64,000 bases of DNA, from NCBI RefSeq assembly GCF_036226685.1, contig NZ_CP109009.1:4526001-4590000 (forward strand), given 5' to 3'. Below are positions 22,134 to 33,866 of this stretch, piece by piece (the first letter of the stretch is position 1; each line of letters begins with the position of its first letter). A model generated the notes under the pieces. That model was not told the origin of the DNA. It saw nothing but the letters and a program-made list of their open reading frames with translations, and made no database searches. Source of the DNA: Streptomyces sp. NBC_00690 (GTDB taxonomy: Bacteria > Actinomycetota > Actinomycetes > Streptomycetales > Streptomycetaceae). Position numbers and translations under genes: made by a program.

Positions 22134-22145
22134 TCTCATTTGAGA
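22134..22145. promoter_or_regulatory. Inverted repeat just upstream of the KSGC promoter
   Basis: TCTCA-TT-TGAGA forms a 12-bp dyad ending five bases before the -35 element at 22151. Its place suits an activator or repressor site. Confidence 0.4.
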
Positions 22146-22150
22146 ATCCA

Positions 22151-22179
22151 TTGACACAGGCATTGGTTACTCATAGCTT
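22151..22179 (+). promoter_or_regulatory. Near-consensus promoter of the KSGC peptide gene
   Basis: TTGACA (22151-22156), a 17-bp spacer and TAGCTT (22174-22179) match the vegetative (HrdB-type) consensus unusually well for this genome. Transcription should start near 22186, about 50 nt before the ATG at 22236. Confidence 0.7.
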
Positions 22180-22235
22180 CCAGGAAACCGGAAGAGCGGC
22201 CACCGCCGCTCACCCGATCACACTGGAGGTCCGTT

Positions 22236-22409
22236 ATGGAACGCCTCATCAAGAAGCTGGCCCAGGAAGAGAACTGGCGCGCGTGGAACTCCGCGAACTC
22301 GGCTGCGGCTGACAAGTCGGGTTGTGTCAGCGCCAAGTCGGGTTGCGTGAGCTCCGCGCCCAAGTCGGGTTGTGTCAGCGCTGCACCGAAGGCCGGCTGT
22401 ATTTCCTAA
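22236..22409 (+). CDS. Candidate RiPP precursor peptide with four K-(S/A)-G-C-(V/I)-S repeats
   Basis: GGAGGT lies five bases before the ATG. The 57-residue product has a charged, helix-prone N-terminus (ERLIKKLAQEENWRAW), a Ser/Ala/Asn linker, then KSGCVS at residues 27-32, 34-39 and 43-48 and KAGCIS at 52-57, ending there. Linkers are A, SAP and AAP. A leader followed by repeated Cys/Ser/Lys units is the design of multi-core RiPP precursors. A consensus promoter precedes it and an attenuator-like hairpin follows, so it is probably made in excess over the enzymes downstream. It matches no precursor family I know; a metal-binding peptide is an alternative. Confidence 0.75.
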   Translation: MERLIKKLAQEENWRAWNSANSAAADKSGCVSAKSGCVSSAPKSGCVSAAPKAGCIS

Positions 22410-22429
22410 CGGATAGCCTTCGGGTAGGC

Positions 22430-22469
22430 GTGGGTCGGGCGGCGATTCTTCGTTCGCCGCCCGACCCAC
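22430..22469 (+). terminator. Attenuator-type hairpin after the precursor gene
   Basis: A perfect 16-bp stem (22430-22445 with 22454-22469) with an 8-nt loop begins 21 bases after the precursor stop. Such partial terminators after a peptide gene commonly keep precursor levels above those of the processing enzymes. Confidence 0.8.
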
Positions 22470-22494
22470 CCCGAAACATTTACGTAACCAGGCA

Positions 22495-22671
22495 TTGCCC
22501 GTCGATTTCTCCGAGCTCTTGACCAGCCAACCGGAAGCTTCGCAGCAGAACCCTTGCGCGGAACGTACCGAGGTGCTGGAGCGGGCCGAGTTCATCGAGC
22601 TCCCCGAGAGTTCCCCGACATCCCGAGTGAGCCATATCCCCCTAGTGTTGAGCCCTTTTAGAGCCGATTGA
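22495..22671 (+). CDS. Possible small coupled ORF before the adenylating enzyme
   Basis: From a TTG at 22495 a frame of 58 codons runs to a TGA at 22669-22671, eight bases before the GTG of the next gene. The peptide contains FSELLTSQPEASQQN and ERAEFIELPESS, acidic with one Cys. Third-position G/C is about 72%, lower than in nearby genes, and the RBS is weak. It could be a small accessory protein, a second peptide, or a chance frame in the 270-bp gap. Confidence 0.3.
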   Translation: MPVDFSELLTSQPEASQQNPCAERTEVLERAEFIELPESSPTSRVSHIPLVLSPFRAD

Positions 22672-22679
22672 GGTCAGAC

Positions 22680-23918
22680 GTGGACGGTCAGCCGAGCTCC
22701 GACATCATCGATGAGATACGGGACATTCCCATCTATCGAAAGTCGATTGAGCAGGGATTCTTCCCCATCCTGGAGAAGCCGGAGATAGCCGACGGCTTCC
22801 CGGACAACTGGATGACCCCACGGTTGGCCAAGGCGCTGGAGGCGGGAGAAGCGGAGTTCGTCCTCTCCACCGGCACCAATCACGCCCGCATGCAGATCAT
22901 TCGGCCGCCCTACTTCCTGCTGAAGACGTACTACCGGCTCTGGAGCGAACACCCCGACATCGCGGACACCTGGGAAGAAGGGTGCCGCCGCGTCTCGATC
23001 ACCACGCTCCTCGCCACGGAACACGTGGCCCGCGTCAACGCCAAGAAGCAGGGAACCGGCCCCGAGGGCGTACCGGCCCTCGACGACCGGCGGCTCGACG
23101 AGAGAACCGTCTATCTGAACCTCCGGCTCGACCCCGATCTCTGGCTCCGCGAGGACGTCGAGCGGATGATCGCCGAGATCCGCACCGAGCAGCAGGCCCA
23201 CCCCCTGGGGCGCTACCACCTCGACTGCTCCGGCTACCACCTGGCGCATCTCATTCGCAAGGCCCGCGAATGGGGCCTGTGGGACACCTTCCCGCAGCCC
23301 GCCAGCGTGATCACGGCCTACGAGTACACGCCGGCCAACGTCCGTGCCTATCTCGAAGACCACATGGACTGCCCGGTCGTCGACCTGTTCGGCAGCACCG
23401 AGCTGGGCTACCTGTACTACAGCGACCACACGGGCCGCTACTACCCCCATCTGGAGCGGATGAGCCTGGAGTTGGTCCCCGTCGCACCGGGCAGCCACAT
23501 CCACAGCCTCATCGTGACCAGTCTGCGCAGCCCCCACATGCCGCTCATCCGCTACCGCTCAGGGGACTGCGTCCGCACCATCGACGGCTCCACCGACCCC
23601 ACGAAGGTCACCCGCTTCTGCGGTCGGGAGAAGGAACTCCTGCCCACCCCGCACGGCCTGGTCTCCCAGGGCGACCTCGACGACGCCGTCGCCACCGCGG
23701 CCCCGGAGGTCTTCCTCTACCAACTGCGCGACGAGGGCAACGGGAGCTTCCAACTGCTGTACACCACCTTCGACGGGGTCCCTCTCGAACCCTCGGAGAG
23801 CGCGGGTCTGGAGAAGTTCATCGGCGAACTCACCGGATTCCATTGCGGCACCGAACACCGCACGCACATTCCGATCGGGATATCGGGCAAGTACGCCTGG
23901 CTCAAGAGGGATTCCTAG
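22680..23918 (+). CDS. Adenylate-forming enzyme, phenylacetate-CoA ligase / CapK-like
   Basis: The 412-residue protein has the core motifs of the PaaK/CapK branch of adenylating enzymes: a P-loop variant FVLSTGTNHAR near 60-70, DLFGSTELGYLYY near 235, RYRSGD near 290 (ribose-binding Asp) and FCGREKELL near 310. The fold makes an acyl-AMP and often passes the acyl group to a thiol or amine. In this locus it could activate an acid for transfer to Lys, Ser or Cys of the repeat peptide, or activate the peptide carboxylate. The GTG at 22680 has GAGG six bases upstream; a TTG at 22668 is the alternative. Confidence 0.8.
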   Translation: MDGQPSSDIIDEIRDIPIYRKSIEQGFFPILEKPEIADGFPDNWMTPRLAKALEAGEAEFVLSTGTNHARMQIIRPPYFLLKTYYRLWSEHPDIADTWEEGCRRVSITTLLATEHVARVNAKKQGTGPEGVPALDDRRLDERTVYLNLRLDPDLWLREDVERMIAEIRTEQQAHPLGRYHLDCSGYHLAHLIRKAREWGLWDTFPQPASVITAYEYTPANVRAYLEDHMDCPVVDLFGSTELGYLYYSDHTGRYYPHLERMSLELVPVAPGSHIHSLIVTSLRSPHMPLIRYRSGDCVRTIDGSTDPTKVTRFCGREKELLPTPHGLVSQGDLDDAVATAAPEVFLYQLRDEGNGSFQLLYTTFDGVPLEPSESAGLEKFIGELTGFHCGTEHRTHIPIGISGKYAWLKRDS

Positions 23919-23936
23919 CTCCCCCCAGGTTTCCGA

Positions 23937-24017
23937 TCCGGCTCTCGAAACCCCTGACTCTTGACTCCCACCTTCGGAGCACTTCCCCTGAGTCAGGAAA
24001 CGGTATCGAGAGCCGGA
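23937..24017. repeat. Large interrupted inverted repeat in the ligase-GRDP gap
   Basis: TCCGGCTCTCGA (23937-23948) pairs perfectly with 24006-24017, and inside it CCTGACTC (23953-23960) pairs with 23990-23997. The RNA would form an 81-nt two-part hairpin about 20 bases after the adenylating enzyme. It may be a terminator, an RNA stability element or a remnant of an inserted repeat. The rest of the 262-bp gap shows nothing clear. Confidence 0.6.
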
Positions 24018-24180
24018 ATCCGGATTGCCCACGGACCCTCCACACGCCAACTGCCGGCCCCAGCCCAACGGCAGGCCGTGCACCCTCCGGGTCCCTACCC
24101 AAGCAATACACCAGCGAGCGACGCCGGACACACGGTCATCGTGCTCACGGCCGAACGCCGAATCCCCTCTCTGGAGAGTC

Positions 24181-24696
24181 ATGCAGACAACGCAACTGGT
24201 CACCGAAGCCGACCTCACGAACCTCCTCGGCGACACTCTTCACACCGAAGTCGTCGAATACTTCGTGAAGGACACCGGCGGCTCGACCGAAGAGGTCGAA
24301 CGCCAAGTGATCGAATGTATGCGTTACCTCTATCTGATTTCTCGCTACCGGACCGAACTCAGCGGCCTCTTCCTGCCCGTTGAGCAGCACATCGACGAGA
24401 TCTGGCACTACCTCATCCTCCAGACGCGCGAATACGTGGAGCTGTGCGAGGAGAAGTTGCCCGGCCGGTTCTTCATCCACCACCGCAGCATCGGCTACGA
24501 GGACTACGCCCAGGAGCCCGGCCGCGAGCAGTCCATCGAGGAGGCGCTGCGCTGGATTCCGCTGTACTGCAAGGAATTCGGCCCCTTCGACGAGGGTGCG
24601 CTGCCACACTGGACGATCGTCCGCTTCCTTCGCCAGCGCATGGACATGTCGTTGGAGGAGATCTCGGCCCTGGAGCCCGCAGCGTCGGCGGCGTAG
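24181..24696 (+). CDS. GRDP-like (glycine-rich domain-containing protein) family protein
   Basis: The 171-residue protein is helical and centres on LPVEQHIDEIWHYLILQT, followed by REYVELC. This D-E-x-W-H-x2-I-L-x-T-x2-Y-x2-L-C signature of the GRDP/DUF1399 family contains conserved Asp and His that could bind a metal. A second motif, FFIHHRSIGYEDY, follows. The family's biochemical role is unknown, so in this locus it may be a modification enzyme or a scaffold. GGAGAG precedes the ATG at 24181. It sits between the adenylating enzyme and the exporter on the same strand. Confidence 0.7.
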   Translation: MQTTQLVTEADLTNLLGDTLHTEVVEYFVKDTGGSTEEVERQVIECMRYLYLISRYRTELSGLFLPVEQHIDEIWHYLILQTREYVELCEEKLPGRFFIHHRSIGYEDYAQEPGREQSIEEALRWIPLYCKEFGPFDEGALPHWTIVRFLRQRMDMSLEEISALEPAASAA

Positions 24697-24783
24697 CGCG
24701 CAAGCGCTGCCCTCCCCGTGCCCCGGGGCCACCCCAAGCCCCCGGGGCCACCGCAAGCGCCGGGGGAACGCGAGGAGCGAGTA

Positions 24784-26139
24784 ATGACGTCCCCGACCAG
24801 CGCCAACGGGCATGTGCCGACGGGCCCCACGGAACATCCCGCGCAACGCCGGATCCTCACCGTCCTGGTGATCTCCCAGATCCTCAGCGGGGCGGGCCTC
24901 GCCGCAGGAATCACCATCGGCGCCCTGCTCGCCGAGGAGATGTTCGGCTCCACCGGGCTTGCCGGCATCCCCAGTGCCCTGTTCACGGCCGGCGCGGCCG
25001 TCGGAGCGGTCGCGGTCGGGCGCGCCTGCCAACGCTGGGGCAGGAGGCCCGGTCTCACCGTGGGCTATGTCGCAGGGACGATCGGCAGCCTGGGCGTGGT
25101 CCTCGCCACCGCGCTGGACAGCATCCTCCTGCTCTGCGTCGGCCTGTTGGTGTACGGCATAGGCACGGCGACGATCATGCTCGTCCGCTACGCCGGTGCC
25201 GACCTCGCATCGCCCGAGAGGCGGGCCCGCGCGGTCAGCACCGTCCTGTTCGCCCTGGCGGCCGGCACCATCGCCGGCCCCAATCTCGTCGGGGTGACGG
25301 GCGACCTTGCGGACGACTGGGGACTGCCGCGGCTGTCGGGCCCCTTCCTGCTCGCCGCCCTCGCCTTCGGCTCCGCGGCGGTGTTCGTCTGGATCTTCCT
25401 GCGACCCGATCCGCTCCTGGTCTCCCGAGCTCTTGCGGCCGAAGCGGAGGCCGAGCGGCTGGCAGACCCCGCAGAGGCGGATGTGCCGGCTCCCGGCGCC
25501 ACGATCTCGTCGGCGGAGCGCCGCATCCTGATCACGGGTGTGACGGTGATGGTCCTCAGTCAGATCGTGATGATCGCGATCATGACGATGACCCCGATCC
25601 ATATGTCGGACCACGGTCACAGCACCCAGAGCGCGGGCATGGTCATCGGCCTCCACCTGGGCGCGATGTATCTGTCGTCGCCGATCTCGGGCATCCTCGC
25701 CGACCGCATCGGCCGTCCCTTCACGGCCGCGCTCGGCACCGTGACCATGTTCGCCGCGGCCCTGGTGGCCGCCCTGGCCCCCGGTCACTCCATGGTGGCC
25801 ATGTCAGTGGCACTGATCCTGTTGGGGCTCGGCTGGAGCATGGGCTTCGTCAGCGGTACGGCCCTGGTCACCGACGCTCTTCCGCCGGCGACCCGCGCCG
25901 CGACGCAAGGCACCGTGGACGTGGGACTCGCCGTCGCCGCCGCCACCGGGGGCATGGCCTCCGGCCTGGTGTTCGCGGGCGGCGGCTATGACCTGCTGGC
26001 CCTCTCGGGCGGCTTCCTGATCCTGGTACTGGCCCCGCTCGCGGCCCTGCTCACCCTGCCCGCGTCCAAGGCGTCGGGACCTGCCGAGGCCCCGTCGGCA
26101 GCCGAGCCCGCCCACGACGACTCCGTACCCAGCAGGTAG
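24784..26139 (+). CDS. MFS transporter, likely exporter of the KSGC locus
   Basis: The 451-residue protein has about twelve hydrophobic segments and two MFS motif-A-like loops (GRACQRWGRRPG after TM2 and ADRIGRPF after TM8). A cytoplasmic linker lies between the halves near residues 215-255. The family moves small molecules with protons. GCGAGGAGCGAGTA precedes the ATG, 87 bases after the GRDP-like gene, so it is probably the last gene of the operon and could export the peptide product. Confidence 0.85.
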   Translation: MTSPTSANGHVPTGPTEHPAQRRILTVLVISQILSGAGLAAGITIGALLAEEMFGSTGLAGIPSALFTAGAAVGAVAVGRACQRWGRRPGLTVGYVAGTIGSLGVVLATALDSILLLCVGLLVYGIGTATIMLVRYAGADLASPERRARAVSTVLFALAAGTIAGPNLVGVTGDLADDWGLPRLSGPFLLAALAFGSAAVFVWIFLRPDPLLVSRALAAEAEAERLADPAEADVPAPGATISSAERRILITGVTVMVLSQIVMIAIMTMTPIHMSDHGHSTQSAGMVIGLHLGAMYLSSPISGILADRIGRPFTAALGTVTMFAAALVAALAPGHSMVAMSVALILLGLGWSMGFVSGTALVTDALPPATRAATQGTVDVGLAVAAATGGMASGLVFAGGGYDLLALSGGFLILVLAPLAALLTLPASKASGPAEAPSAAEPAHDDSVPSR

Positions 26140-29461: not shown

Positions 29462-30125
29462 GGCGGTTGCGTGGTGGCAACGCGCGGATCGTGGAGCGGA
29501 CCCCGGCGCCCATTGTCGGCCGGATCAGCCGTCTTGATCCACCTCATCATGTGGAGCTCGACTTCGCTCAGCTGTCGGAGTCCAAGGCCAAGCCGGCTCC
29601 AGCCGCGTGAAGTTGACACACCACTCTGTGGATCACCCGAGGGGAGCCACTCTGCATGACGAGACTTAGCGTTTGCAATCAGCCAAGTTTCAACTACAGC
29701 TGAAGGGGCGGGCGCGACTTGCCGCGTTGCCGTTAACCGGAGTAACAGCCTCCGTCGAGTGTGGGCATCGATGGGCGCAAAGCAGACTCGGCCTATGGGG
29801 TGTTGCGATCCTTGCTCAATGTCGACAAGGTCCTCACCTCTACCCATGAGCGGGCTCTCACGAAGAATGCCTGTTCAGGTGGCCTCTGCCTGGCACCGTT
29901 TAGTTATGTCGAGTGCGGCGAGTGGGGTTGGATGTTCACACCTGTCACACAGGCCACATTCGCGCCATGGGTTCACTTGAGCAATAGGGGGCACCATTGA
30001 CGCTCTCCCGCATATGCCCGGACCATAAGTCACGCCACCGTCCGGAGCTCAACCGGACGGCGAGCCGATGCGCGGCCCCCTCCGCGCATCCCCCTTCCGT
30101 ACCACCAACCCCAAGGTGCGTTTAC
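29462..30125. other. 664-bp region without a convincing gene
   Basis: Base composition falls below that of neighbouring genes, especially 29620-30000. Short frames are open but have weak third-position bias and no RBS. The last part should hold the promoter of the secreted protein at 30126. It may be decayed DNA. Confidence 0.5.
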
Positions 30126-30665
30126 ATGCGCAAGCGTCTTTCCGTAATCCTCAGTGCCCTGGCGATCGCTGCCGCGGGCACTGTCACCGGTGCCGGTACG
30201 GCCTCAGCGGCCGGTACCACCCCCAATGTGGTCGCCAGCGCCAAGAGTTCCGCCGCCGCGTTCGGCAGCATCTGCTACCAGGCCCACGTGCAGAACGTCG
30301 GCTGGCAGAACTTCACCGCGTGCAACGGAACGATCGCGGGAACCGTCGGCCAGGCACGAAACCTGGAGGCGCTCACCATCGCCACCGCAGGCGTGGGCGG
30401 CGTGTGCGCTCGCGCACATGTGGCCGGCGTCGGCTGGCAGACCTGGCAGTGTCGCCCCGACGGTCAGGCGCTGACGGTCGGTACCACTGGCCAGAACCGT
30501 GCGATCGAAGCAGTCGAAGTGGCCATCACCAGCACCAGACTGGTGAGAGGGAACGCGCACGTGGCGAACCTCGGCTGGCAGGGCTGGAAGGCATGGGGCG
30601 AGTCCACCACGGTCGGCACCACGGGCCAGGCCCGCGCCATGGAGGCCGTCCGCTTCGAGGTGTGA
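30126..30665 (+). CDS. Secreted protein with three Trp-rich (ChW-like) repeats
   Basis: The 179-residue protein has a signal peptide (MRKRLSVILSALAIAAAGTV, A-S-A site near 26-28). Three repeats follow, centred on VQNVGWQNF, VAGVGWQTW and VANLGWQGW, each ending in a G-T-x-G-Q-x-R-x2-E-A segment. This resembles the ChW (clostridial hydrophobic W) repeats of extracellular proteins, which may bind surfaces. AAGGTG lies seven bases before the ATG. It lies alone, with long gaps on both sides. Confidence 0.8.
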   Translation: MRKRLSVILSALAIAAAGTVTGAGTASAAGTTPNVVASAKSSAAAFGSICYQAHVQNVGWQNFTACNGTIAGTVGQARNLEALTIATAGVGGVCARAHVAGVGWQTWQCRPDGQALTVGTTGQNRAIEAVEVAITSTRLVRGNAHVANLGWQGWKAWGESTTVGTTGQARAMEAVRFEV

Positions 30666-31305: not shown

Positions 31306-32448
31306 TCAGATCGGCAGATCCCAACCCGGACCGTCCTCGCTGCCGATCCACACCCGCTGCCGGGCGTCCGAGACCGTGATGCCGAAGCCCTCCTGATGCG
31401 GCGCCCCGGCCGCCTGCCAACTCTGTACTGCCTGCTCGACCCGATCCCACAACGGCACCGGCCCGCGCTGCACAACGACCCAGTCCGCATCGGTCCCGGA
31501 AGCCGTCCGCGCCTGCGAACCGGTGGACACGTCCAGCAGGATCTGTTCCGTCCCCATCCCCAGCCGCTCTGCCGAAGGCGCGGCGAGCTGGGCGACCCAA
31601 CTTCCCGTCCACGTACCGACGACCGTAGGGTCGATCAGGCTCACGCGCTCCTCACCCGGCAACAGTGCTAGCGCCGGCCGCGGTGGACGATCATGCGGCC
31701 GGGCGATCATGAAACTGGTGTACCCGGGGAGGAATCGTCCGGTGGCTGCGCCAGGGCCGGTCACGGTGAGCAGCGCCAATCCGGACGCGTAGCTCCACCC
31801 CGAGAGCGTGACCAGGATCTTCCCGCCCGGTTTCACCTGGTGGAGCCACGGCACGGGGATGTACCGGACCGAGCAGGTCGCGATCAGACGGTCGTACGCT
31901 CCCCCCTCGGGGTCTCCCCGCAGGCCGTCCCCGATGATCAGCCGAGGGGTGTATCCGGCGGCTTTGATGGCGGAGTGTGCGGCGGTACCCACCACCGGGT
32001 CGTACTCGATGCTGGTGAGGTTGCCGTCCCCGATGCGGTGCGCGCCCAGGGCGGTCGAGTACCCCGTTCCCGTACCGACTTCCAAGACGCGCTGTCCACA
32101 TCGGACGTCGAGTTGCTGCCACATCCGCAGTACGAGTGACGGGAGCGTGGAGGATGACGAAGGAGAACCGGAGGCTGTTCCATCCGCAACGTCGTCGGGA
32201 CGGATGCGACCGTCGAGCTGGGTGATCAGCGTCTGGTCGGTGTAGATGCCCTCCAACCACCCTGCATCCCCCTGGCGGACCGGCCGATAGTGGGTCGTCG
32301 CACCCCCGGGAACCTCCTGAAAGTAGGCCCCCGCGAACAGTTCCCGAGGAATGGCCTCGACGGCGCTGCGCCAGCGGGAGTCGGTGAGCGTGCCGTCCTC
32401 GGTGAGAGCGTCCGCCAAGGTGGCACGCAGCTGAACGGATGTGCTCAT
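31306..32448 (-). CDS. tgmC: PIMT-like methyltransferase of the graspetide operon
   Basis: The 380-residue protein is of the protein-L-isoaspartate methyltransferase type, with SAM motif [17 protein letters not shown] near residue 120, post-I LTSIEYDP and a PSSSST patch near 97-102. A C-terminal domain of about 150 residues follows, as in RiPP-associated PIMTs. In imiditide graspetides such as fuscimiditide, the enzyme methylates one Asp of the ester-cyclised peptide, which then closes to an aspartimide. The ATG overlaps the ligase stop as ATGA. The symbol follows the informal naming of these operons and is tentative. Confidence 0.85.
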   Translation of the reverse strand: MSTSVQLRATLADALTEDGTLTDSRWRSAVEAIPRELFAGAYFQEVPGGATTHYRPVRQGDAGWLEGIYTDQTLITQLDGRIRPDDVADGTASGSPSSSSTLPSLVLRMWQQLDVRCGQRVLEVGTGTGYSTALGAHRIGDGNLTSIEYDPVVGTAAHSAIKAAGYTPRLIIGDGLRGDPEGGAYDRLIATCSVRYIPVPWLHQVKPGGKILVTLSGWSYASGLALLTVTGPGAATGRFLPGYTSFMIARPHDRPPRPALALLPGEERVSLIDPTVVGTWTGSWVAQLAAPSAERLGMGTEQILLDVSTGSQARTASGTDADWVVVQRGPVPLWDRVEQAVQSWQAAGAPHQEGFGITVSDARQRVWIGSEDGPGWDLPI

Positions 32449-33410
32449 GTGTCGGACCCGTTCTGTAGTTGGTCAGAGATGGCACGGGCAACAGCGTCGG
32501 TGATGAGGGGCGGCTGCCATGCCCACTGCCCGTTGGGATTGCACTCCAGGAAGTACCAGACCCCGCCATCGGTCACTGCGAAGTCAAAGGCGCCGTACAC
32601 CAGACGAGAGGCACGGAGATAGGCAGCGATAGACAACGCAACCGCCTCGGGCACGGCGATCGGTGTGCACCGCATGAGGTCCTGTCGGTGGCGCCAGTCG
32701 AGTTCGGGGCTGTTGATCCGGAGCCCGAACAGGTGCTGGCCCACGGCCGTCACGCGCACGTCGTGGACCTTGTCGACCCGGGCTTGGAACATGTGGGGAC
32801 ACGTCGCCACTCCCGCGGTGATCTCCGGCTCGCTCACCTCCCGGACCCATACAGCCTGGGGCTTGCCGGCCACCGAGTACCGGCTGCCCCACAGAGGCTT
32901 GTAGACCACACCGCCGGTGTAGAGGGTTGTGAACGCCCGCGCTTCCTGTACGTCGTTCGTGATCAATGTGTCGGGTATCTGGAAGCCGACCCGCTGCGCG
33001 GTGGCGAGCTGGGCCGGTTTGTGCTCGGACGCTCGGTTGTCCCAGGGGTGGTTGAGGTAGTGCGCCCCGGGCAGGGACGCCAGGATGCCACCTGCCCCCC
33101 ACAGCAGCTGATCGGCAGCGAACCGCCGCTCTTGTTCGGGCAGTTCGCCAGGCCCTTTGTACGGCGATGCCCTGCGCACCCATACCGAGCGAACCGCAGT
33201 CAGGTCGAGTTCGCGGCTTGCCGTGCGCAGAGTGCCCCGCTGGGAGCCCGTGCGATAGGTGGTGGTCAGGGAGGCATCAGTGGGGAGGTCGGCGCCGGGG
33301 TCGAGTCGGACCACCCGAACGTGTCGCTCGGCGAGTATCCGCAACACCAAGTCTGCGGTCACGTCATATTTGTTGGTCAGTACGAGCACCGATCCGCGTT
33401 GGTCACCCAT
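32445..33410 (-). CDS. tgmB: ATP-grasp graspetide ester ligase (TgmB-like)
   Basis: The 321-residue protein carries the landmarks of ATP-grasp RiPP maturases: SVWVRRASPYKG, YLNHPWDNRASEHKPAQL, GFQIPDTLITND, VVYKPLWGS, KVHDVRVTAVG and the metal-binding end YGAFDFAVTDG with FLECNPNGQWAWQ. It should phosphorylate Asp/Glu side chains of the precursor and join them to Ser/Thr hydroxyls (omega-esters). The ATG at 33410 overlaps the precursor stop by 8 nt, and its own stop overlaps the methyltransferase start, which strongly supports one operon. Confidence 0.9.
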   Translation of the reverse strand: MGDQRGSVLVLTNKYDVTADLVLRILAERHVRVVRLDPGADLPTDASLTTTYRTGSQRGTLRTASRELDLTAVRSVWVRRASPYKGPGELPEQERRFAADQLLWGAGGILASLPGAHYLNHPWDNRASEHKPAQLATAQRVGFQIPDTLITNDVQEARAFTTLYTGGVVYKPLWGSRYSVAGKPQAVWVREVSEPEITAGVATCPHMFQARVDKVHDVRVTAVGQHLFGLRINSPELDWRHRQDLMRCTPIAVPEAVALSIAAYLRASRLVYGAFDFAVTDGGVWYFLECNPNGQWAWQPPLITDAVARAISDQLQNGSDT

Positions 33411-33684
33411 CACCTGATTGATCCTGGTCGTAGGACTCGGTGCTGTCGGAGTCGGTTGCCGTGCCTGGTTGAGACCCGTCGCCGGGGCTGGTTGCCGTGG
33501 GTGTGAGACCACTCGTGCTCGTACCGTGGTCGCCGAGTTCGACCCTGCGCCCCTGTTCGTCCACGATCACGGCGATCTGAGTATCGGGGTCGATCACGGG
33601 CGTGAACTCCGGGACCGTGACGGTGGCCGCGTACGGACCCATCCTGCTCGTACCCCAGGGTGTGGGCGTCTGCCTCGAATTCAC
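33403..33684 (-). CDS. tgmA: ATP-grasp-modified RiPP precursor (TgmA-like graspetide)
   Basis: From the GTG at 33684 (GGAG five bases upstream) the peptide is 93 residues. The leader has the family signature TPTPWGTSRMGPY, then FTPVIDPDTQIAVIVD and ELGDHGTSTSG. The C-terminal 40 residues are Thr/Ser-rich then Asp-rich, with acidic residues at about 69, 78, 80, 83, 86, 88 and 92, which suits Thr/Ser-to-Asp/Glu ester links. D69-G and D92-G are plausible aspartimide sites. An alternative TTG start 34 codons upstream would cover the divergent control region and is less likely. Confidence 0.85.
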   Translation of the reverse strand: MNSRQTPTPWGTSRMGPYAATVTVPEFTPVIDPDTQIAVIVDEQGRRVELGDHGTSTSGLTPTATSPGDGSQPGTATDSDSTESYDQDQSGDG

Positions 33685-33751
33685 GATGTCTCCGTTTCCT
33701 GCCGGTGTCGATGGCTGTTGCGAGGGGAATCTGGGCCCGCTCACGCCGACT

Positions 33752-33765
33752 GCACCAATTGGTGC
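33752..33765. promoter_or_regulatory. Palindrome in the graspetide/regulator divergent region
   Basis: GCACCAATTGGTGC is a perfect 14-bp palindrome, 68 bases before the precursor GTG and 102 bases before the XRE gene. It is the best operator candidate for the adjacent regulator. Confidence 0.55.
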
Positions 33766-33866
33766 GCCGTTATGCATAGTCAACAACTGTGCGCGGAGAG
33801 TGAGTACCTTAGGGCGGTGGCCAATCTGTTCAATCCGTTCAAGATCGCGACAGGGGGAGCGTCCGG

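Follow-up and report, generated by a model that had tools for sequence, protein, structure and literature searches.

Multi-core RiPPs (ribosomally synthesized and post-translationally modified peptides) are made from a short precursor, in which a conserved leader precedes near-identical cores that vary in number, and are encoded together with dedicated enzymes. A locus of this design is found in Streptomyces sp. NBC_00690, in a stretch of 64,000 nucleotides which is referred to as the window (contig NZ_CP109009.1, positions 4,526,001 to 4,590,000). It codes for a repeat peptide, an ANL-type ligase, a GRDP-like protein and an MFS transporter. It differs from multi-core RiPP systems in that no class-defining enzyme is recognized in the operon, and in that its modification is putative. 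On balance, and judging from sequence, we favor the view that the genes form a biosynthetic cassette that is RiPP-like but of a kind not yet described, the units of which are modified via the ligase.

Parts of this locus resemble other described systems. In PEARL systems (TglA and ammosamide type), a peptide serves as scaffold, which is also one of the alternatives weighed below for the repeat peptide. PEARLs are LanB-like enzymes (cf. PMC11212132), but none is recognized in this operon. The ligase can be compared with PaaK/ANL ligases (PDB 9s3l, AjiA1 6wuq, BagE/FevW and the DVU_1553 family). They align with the C-terminal half of the window ligase and have FGSTE-, RYxxGD- and GRE-like motifs in common with it. 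The window ligase, however, is far below the NCBIfam cut-offs, has no Pfam match, carries STGTxHARM as P-loop and is accompanied by a repeat peptide. Bacterial glycine-rich domain-like (GRDP) proteins share a DExWHxxIL core with the partner protein, but the latter has no match in the local Pfam copy and its relatives carry a label of their own (PF27765.1). In carbonic anhydrase operons of the cynTSX type, a beta-carbonic anhydrase is tied to a pathway that affects bicarbonate. A beta-carbonic anhydrase is likewise linked to many relatives of this locus, but there it is joined by a repeat peptide together with a ligase, and most loci of the downstream arrangement add a small membrane protein.

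The features of the window locus are as follows.

22151..22179, + strand: candidate promoter of the peptide gene (TTGACA, 17 nt, TAGCTT), of which only the -35 element is convincing
22225..22229, + strand: ribosome-binding site GGAGG, 6 nt 5' of the peptide ATG
22236..22409, + strand: precursor-like peptide of 57 residues, with a leader (residues 1-26) and four K-(S/A)-G-C-(V/I)-S units; conserved, matched by a peptide profile
22314..22331, + strand: unit 1, KSGCVS, from the sequence
22335..22352, + strand: unit 2, KSGCVS, from the sequence
22362..22379, + strand: unit 3, KSGCVS, from the sequence
22389..22406, + strand: unit 4, KAGCIS, from the sequence; reaches the stop codon
22419..22475, + strand: strong hairpin between the peptide and ligase genes, from folding (z -6.4)
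22680..23918, + strand: predicted ANL ligase of the acyl-adenylate-forming type, distantly PaaK-like, 412 residues, from conserved motifs and profile matches
24181..24696, + strand: GRDP-like partner protein, 171 residues; label PF27765.1 on its relatives, adjoins the ligase in 93 of 95 loci
24784..26139, + strand: MFS transporter and putative exporter, 451 residues (PF07690, E-value 7e-31)

Conservation of the three-gene unit

As seen by sequence comparison, the peptide, the ANL-type ligase and the GRDP-like partner are one conserved three-gene unit; the transporters vary by lineage. The ligase is encoded in 48 of 392 genomes of the genus Streptomyces, in one of them merely as a fragment. It is also encoded in 47 loci from named genomes of the genera Streptomyces, Kitasatospora, Kutzneria, Amycolatopsis, Actinokineospora, Saccharopolyspora, Sinosporangium, Nocardia, Paraburkholderia and Burkholderia, and of one unclassified Pseudonocardiaceae. 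In a phylum-wide sample of 396 genomes, it was found in the window's own genome, and the only other hit was a weak partial match.

A peptide of the same design is encoded upstream of the ligase in all 77 loci that were fetched first (66 + 11). This conservation, over 69 distinct ligase DNA sequences, excludes chance. The enlarged set, which overlaps with the first one in genomes, comprises 95 loci with 87 distinct ligase DNA sequences. The peptide is present in 94 of them, with 93 recognized by a regular expression and one (L072) missed by it. The sole locus without the peptide (L133) has a ligase match of merely 101 residues. This locus looks decayed; its GRDP-like match shows 83% identity over 115 residues. 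A GRDP-like gene is adjacent to the ligase, always on the same strand, in 93 of the 95 loci. The two others are L065 (see below) and L087, in which only some 130 bases of contig remain after the ligase.

The peptide profile matched in all nine Streptomyces genomes with an intact ligase that were searched, in none of 48 ligase-free genomes (taken from the 344 without a ligase match) and not in the one genome with a ligase fragment. In the protein database, the ligase (319), the GRDP-like protein (339) and the short peptide (214) have comparable cluster counts. The first-pass annotation of this locus had named homologues of the ligase and GRDP-like genes that consistently lack the peptide as an outcome that would speak against it, and the opposite was found. 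The RiPP-like locus it described, with a multi-unit precursor, a dedicated ligase and a GRDP-like gene, recurs across the loci. Its set of four genes has to be shortened: peptide, ligase and GRDP-like gene are conserved together, with one to four units per peptide in these loci, but the MFS gene is not universal. In one distant actinobacterial genome (G675; L083 and L135), weak profile matches for the ligase and the GRDP-like protein are on different contigs.

Peptide, ligase, partner protein and expression signals

The open reading frame at 22236-22409 codes for a leader plus four units, as had been annotated. The units are at residues 27-32, 34-39, 43-48 and 52-57. The repeat is also visible in the DNA as three 27-nt copies, two of which share 74% and 81% identity with the reference copy. 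From 72 of the 77 loci, 63 distinct peptides with 185 unit cysteines were collected (the regular expression missed L059 and L072-L075). Every one of the 185 cysteines has glycine at position -1, isoleucine or valine at +1 and serine at +2, and 179 have lysine at -3. One of the 63 peptides has a single unit, 10 have two, 44 have three and eight have four. Among the database matches, 120 of 214 peptides were analyzed, with 380 cysteines and the counts 376 (glycine), 377 (isoleucine or valine), 373 (serine) and 370 (lysine). Three of these 120 peptides have six units. The names of the 120 are hypothetical, uncharacterized or absent, with the exception of P0282, which has a domain name. Three peptides from Sorangium were read; GCIS occurs six times in two of them and four times in the third, which has a GYIS variant in addition.

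Across the Streptomyces loci, the core units occur in 28 DNA versions in which the amino acids are kept, including switches between the AGC and TCC serine codon families. Since the amino acids are kept while the codons change, even between serine codon families, selection acts on the amino acids of the core. In the leader, W14, W17, N21 and S22 are invariant in an alignment of 17 sequences.

Pfam recognizes only the MFS transporter among the four operon proteins. In NCBIfam, the ligase weakly matches the DVU_1553 AMP-ligase family (41 bits versus a cut-off of 300) and, still more weakly, BagE/FevW and PaaK. A profile of 42 ligase relatives matches PaaK-like ligases of known structure (best E-value 1.6e-7), and the matched stretch contains the expected ANL motifs. 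The conserved motifs are STGTxHARM, FGSTELGYL, RYxxGD, CGREKE and SGKxAWL; the ANL motifs are retained in ligases with as little as 50% identity. The core motifs and the C-terminal lysine of ANL enzymes are present, and S402, G403 and K404 are invariant in 42 sequences. The previous assignment as a PaaK/CapK-type adenylating enzyme is backed by the ANL motifs and the PaaK-like profile match, but not by the P-loop region, which reads STGTxHARM and not the canonical SSGTTG.

The partner protein had been described as GRDP/DUF1399-like. A GRDP-like gene is indeed conserved, but membership in DUF1399 was not borne out, as the protein matches no family of the local Pfam copy at E-values up to 1. PF27765.1 is the precomputed label of nearly all listed relatives; a few go by the name glycine-rich domain-containing protein. 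E68, D72, E73, W75, H76, C89 and H101 are invariant within the family, and a DExWHxxILxTxxY...C......H core is common to the GRDP-like protein and very distant proteins. A sequence search returned no relative of known structure. The protein may bind a metal or the leader.

A consensus promoter had been assigned to the peptide gene. Its -35 element (TTGACA at 22151-22156) holds, but the -10 candidate TAGCTT is poor, and a scan for sigma-70 consensus promoters found none. Of 93 upstream regions, 47 contain a motif TTGAC..TTTAC, which was defined after the sequences had been inspected; in single-base shuffles, 0.0 would be expected. A further 26 regions have TTGAC alone and 20 have neither element. 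The motif in these related loci supports a promoter upstream of the peptide gene. The GGAGG ribosome-binding site, ending 6 nt before the ATG, is strong, as had been stated.

The hairpin 3' of the peptide stop codon (-56.5 kcal/mol) was equaled by none of 200 shuffles and lacks a T-run. It is a candidate for a partial terminator or an RNA-processing signal. A stem of at least eight consecutive pairs is predicted 3' of the peptide in 90 of 93 loci (L072 and L133 are left out of this set), a count from GC-rich sequences and without shuffle control. RiPP operons often make more peptide than enzyme. The placement of the hairpin fits such a surplus and is also compatible with an attenuator. The gap between the ligase and GRDP-like genes (23919-24180) contains a long inverted repeat (CCGGCTCTCGA...TCGAGAGCCGG), and its folding has a z of -5.4.

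Transporters, carbonic anhydrase and other neighbors

The fourth gene of the window codes for a clear MFS transporter, as annotated, but such an exporter is not universal. The window type is found in 33 of the 48 Streptomyces loci, 32 times directly downstream, and in 17 of the 47 named-genome loci. A second, different MFS cluster (one representative checked with Pfam) is present in 16 of the 47 named-genome loci (L056-L059, L061, L062, L066-L073, L075 and L077). These are all from non-Streptomyces actinomycetes, and the gene is convergent and located after the cassette. Five loci (L056-L058, L061 and L064) have a gene resembling flavin-dependent monooxygenases, again with one representative checked with Pfam.

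Of the 48 Streptomyces loci (L086-L133), 33 encode a beta-carbonic anhydrase less than 4 kb away from the ligase, with gaps of 1.0 to 3.7 kb between the two. A SulP transporter is encoded in 31 of the 48, and 30 of the 33 carbonic anhydrase loci have both. On one representative, Pfam identified the carbonic anhydrase and the sulfate-permease-type (SulP) transporter. The CxDxR and HxxC motifs are retained in all 33 linked carbonic anhydrases. Genomes with the ligase have about 2.9 carbonic anhydrase matches each (139 in 48), so that a random gene would rarely have one so near. The 48 ligase-free genomes have 89 matches, none of which exceeds 68% identity to the query. The query is itself a downstream copy, and the 20 copies in this position match it with 73-100% identity.

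The carbonic anhydrase gene is downstream on the same strand in 20 loci, upstream on the same strand in five, near upstream on the opposite strand in two and far upstream on the opposite strand in six. In the ligase tree, which was read without support values and with L133 left out, the three upstream types occupy regions of their own, and the far opposite-strand group is nested in a downstream group. The association is not a general rule. Fifteen of the 48 Streptomyces loci lack a carbonic anhydrase (two of these, L087 and L132, are on short contigs). The window is among them and is devoid of the carbonic anhydrase/SulP pair. None was found in the fetched flanks of the 25 non-Streptomyces named-genome loci. 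The link, where present, suggests bicarbonate as a substrate or carbonic anhydrase as a target.

Directly before the carbonic anhydrase, 18 of the 20 loci of the downstream type encode a small protein of the membrane or secreted kind. It ends with HCVFRC or one of the variants YCVFRC, YCVARS and HCVSRS (e.g., in L095, L126 and L040); in L095, the HCVFRC-type protein is 3.7 kb downstream of the ligase start. Of 40 ligase-bearing genomes, 16 have this end pattern, one of these at a site outside the operon; of 40 ligase-free genomes, none has it.

Further downstream in the window, the region 29997-30665 codes for a protein with ChW (clostridial hydrophobic W) repeats. An ATP-grasp RiPP locus (31306-33786, - strand) is about 5 kb downstream of the MFS gene. 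It codes for a methyltransferase (TIGR04188), an ATP-grasp maturase (TIGR04187) and a precursor (TIGR04186). Like the cassette, this tgm locus places a ribosomal peptide beside an ATP-using ligase. However, it is separate, on the opposite strand, and has a known maturase, methyltransferase and precursor family. Membership of the cassette in the graspetides was rejected, as the operon has no ATP-grasp gene and those at 32445-33786 come with a precursor of their own.

Proposed function and alternatives

The cassette has an encoded precursor with a conserved leader and one to six units. Dedicated enzymes are linked to this precursor and would act on it. The system works like a RiPP system and is a candidate member. 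Among the operon proteins, no class-defining RiPP enzyme (LanB/M, YcaO, radical SAM, ATP-grasp, lasso, ThiF) was recognized; in agreement with the first-pass annotation, scans gave only MFS and weak ANL matches. The neighbors of the other loci were clustered, and part of them were scanned for these families. The PADLOC profiles for anti-phage defence match neither the peptide nor the ligase nor the GRDP-like protein. Among the papers listed from the literature covered, which leaves most subscription journals outside, no title or abstract beginning was found that names the peptide, its units or the gene set, and the exact unit strings gave no match.

A leader followed by near-identical units points to one reaction that is repeated on every unit, and the class of the ligase points to an acyl-AMP step. 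We propose that the GRDP-like protein, the ligase or both bind the leader, and that the ligase turns a small carboxylate into an acyl-AMP. The acyl group would then go to the invariant cysteine thiol of each unit, so that every unit would be modified alike. The cysteine is the most likely acceptor because ANL enzymes naturally transfer acyl groups to thiols. A relay from the cysteine to the lysine three residues earlier is possible. A protease from outside the cassette would free the units, and the MFS pump would export the product in many actinomycetes. Where a carbonic anhydrase and a SulP transporter are linked, as in many Streptomyces, the pair may provide the pathway with bicarbonate or shield the producer. 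It had also been considered that the ligase activates the peptide itself. For the C-terminus this is unlikely, and it was rejected as the main role of the ligase: most units are internal, there is at most one C-terminal unit per peptide, and the peptides from Kutzneria, Amycolatopsis, Actinokineospora and Saccharopolyspora have none.

Several observations weigh against modification of the units via the ligase. The modification of the core is so far a prediction. The usual P-loop motif of ANL enzymes is SSGTTG; because STGTxHARM replaces it, ordinary adenylation by the ligase is not certain. Six of the 185 units have no lysine at -3, so that a relay from cysteine to lysine would not be universal. 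The leader looks to be under moderate selection: when 43 distinct leaders, taken from 47 loci, are compared in pairs, non-synonymous codon differences (5668) outnumber synonymous ones (2190). The locus of Sinosporangium siamense (L065) retains the ligase and a peptide with a single unit, but no GRDP-like gene was seen in its fetched flanks. Around the four Burkholderia/Paraburkholderia loci, the other neighbors of which were partly scanned, neither of the two MFS types was found. Beyond the MFS, carbonic anhydrase and SulP genes, and the peptide aside, no neighbor cluster is present in more than 12 of the 48 Streptomyces loci, so that there is no evident protease or leader-binding (RRE) gene with a general link to the cassette.

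It is tempting to speculate that the locus represents a new RiPP class tied to inorganic carbon, a possibility we raise only tentatively. The product would contain a carbonyl bridge between Lys(-3) and Cys, or it would inhibit beta-carbonic anhydrase. For the bridge, the ligase would activate a lysine carbamate or bicarbonate, giving a cyclic thiocarbamate in each K-x-G-C-(I/V)-S unit, and the linked carbonic anhydrase and SulP transporter would feed bicarbonate. For the inhibitor, the linked pair would confer self-resistance. Carbonic anhydrases of the alpha and beta classes are reported to be inhibited by mono- and dithiocarbamates (PMC6010021). The peptide might also be an intracellular scaffold or carrier, on each cysteine of which the ligase loads an acyl or aminoacyl group as a thioester; the GRDP-like protein would transform this group, so that a small molecule is released with little or no peptide. 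Repeated identical units suit a carrier, acyl transfer to thiols is natural for ANL enzymes, and MFS pumps usually carry small molecules. The lack of a generally linked protease gene points the same way, as do the four Burkholderia/Paraburkholderia loci, where neither MFS type was found among partly scanned neighbors. We nevertheless regard this as rather unlikely, since conservation covers the entire K-x-G-C-(I/V)-S unit and not the thiol alone, and since no widely shared tailoring gene accompanies the MFS, carbonic anhydrase and SulP genes.

That the peptide serves as a thiol or metal-binding peptide, with the ligase acting on an unrelated small molecule, is improbable. The cysteines are regularly spaced, with up to six in the Sorangium peptides, the GRDP-like protein has conserved histidine, cysteine and acidic residues, and carbonic anhydrase is a zinc enzyme. 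Yet glycine, isoleucine or valine, and serine are fixed around all 185 cysteines, beyond what would be expected from metal binding alone, and the peptide strictly co-occurs with the ligase. We give still less credence to a regulatory leader reading frame, in which the cysteine codons and the hairpin act as an attenuator that senses Cys-tRNA and controls the ligase. A strong hairpin does lie between several cysteine codons and the ligase gene. Attenuation, however, needs the cysteine codons alone, yet the W-x-x-W...NS pattern of the leader and the flanks of the cysteines are conserved at the amino acid level. Synonymous codon change in the core, a strong ribosome-binding site of the peptide's own and a varying number of units likewise disagree with it.

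If the ligase modifies the units, as we favor, the cassette would represent a RiPP class with a new class-defining enzyme. It is spread over Streptomyces, Kitasatospora, Amycolatopsis, Nocardia, Paraburkholderia, Burkholderia and others, and the peptide has relatives in Sorangium. With only three genes, the system is small enough for testing in a laboratory host. The link to carbonic anhydrase may provide a concrete lead to the chemistry or the target of the product, which is rare among orphan clusters.

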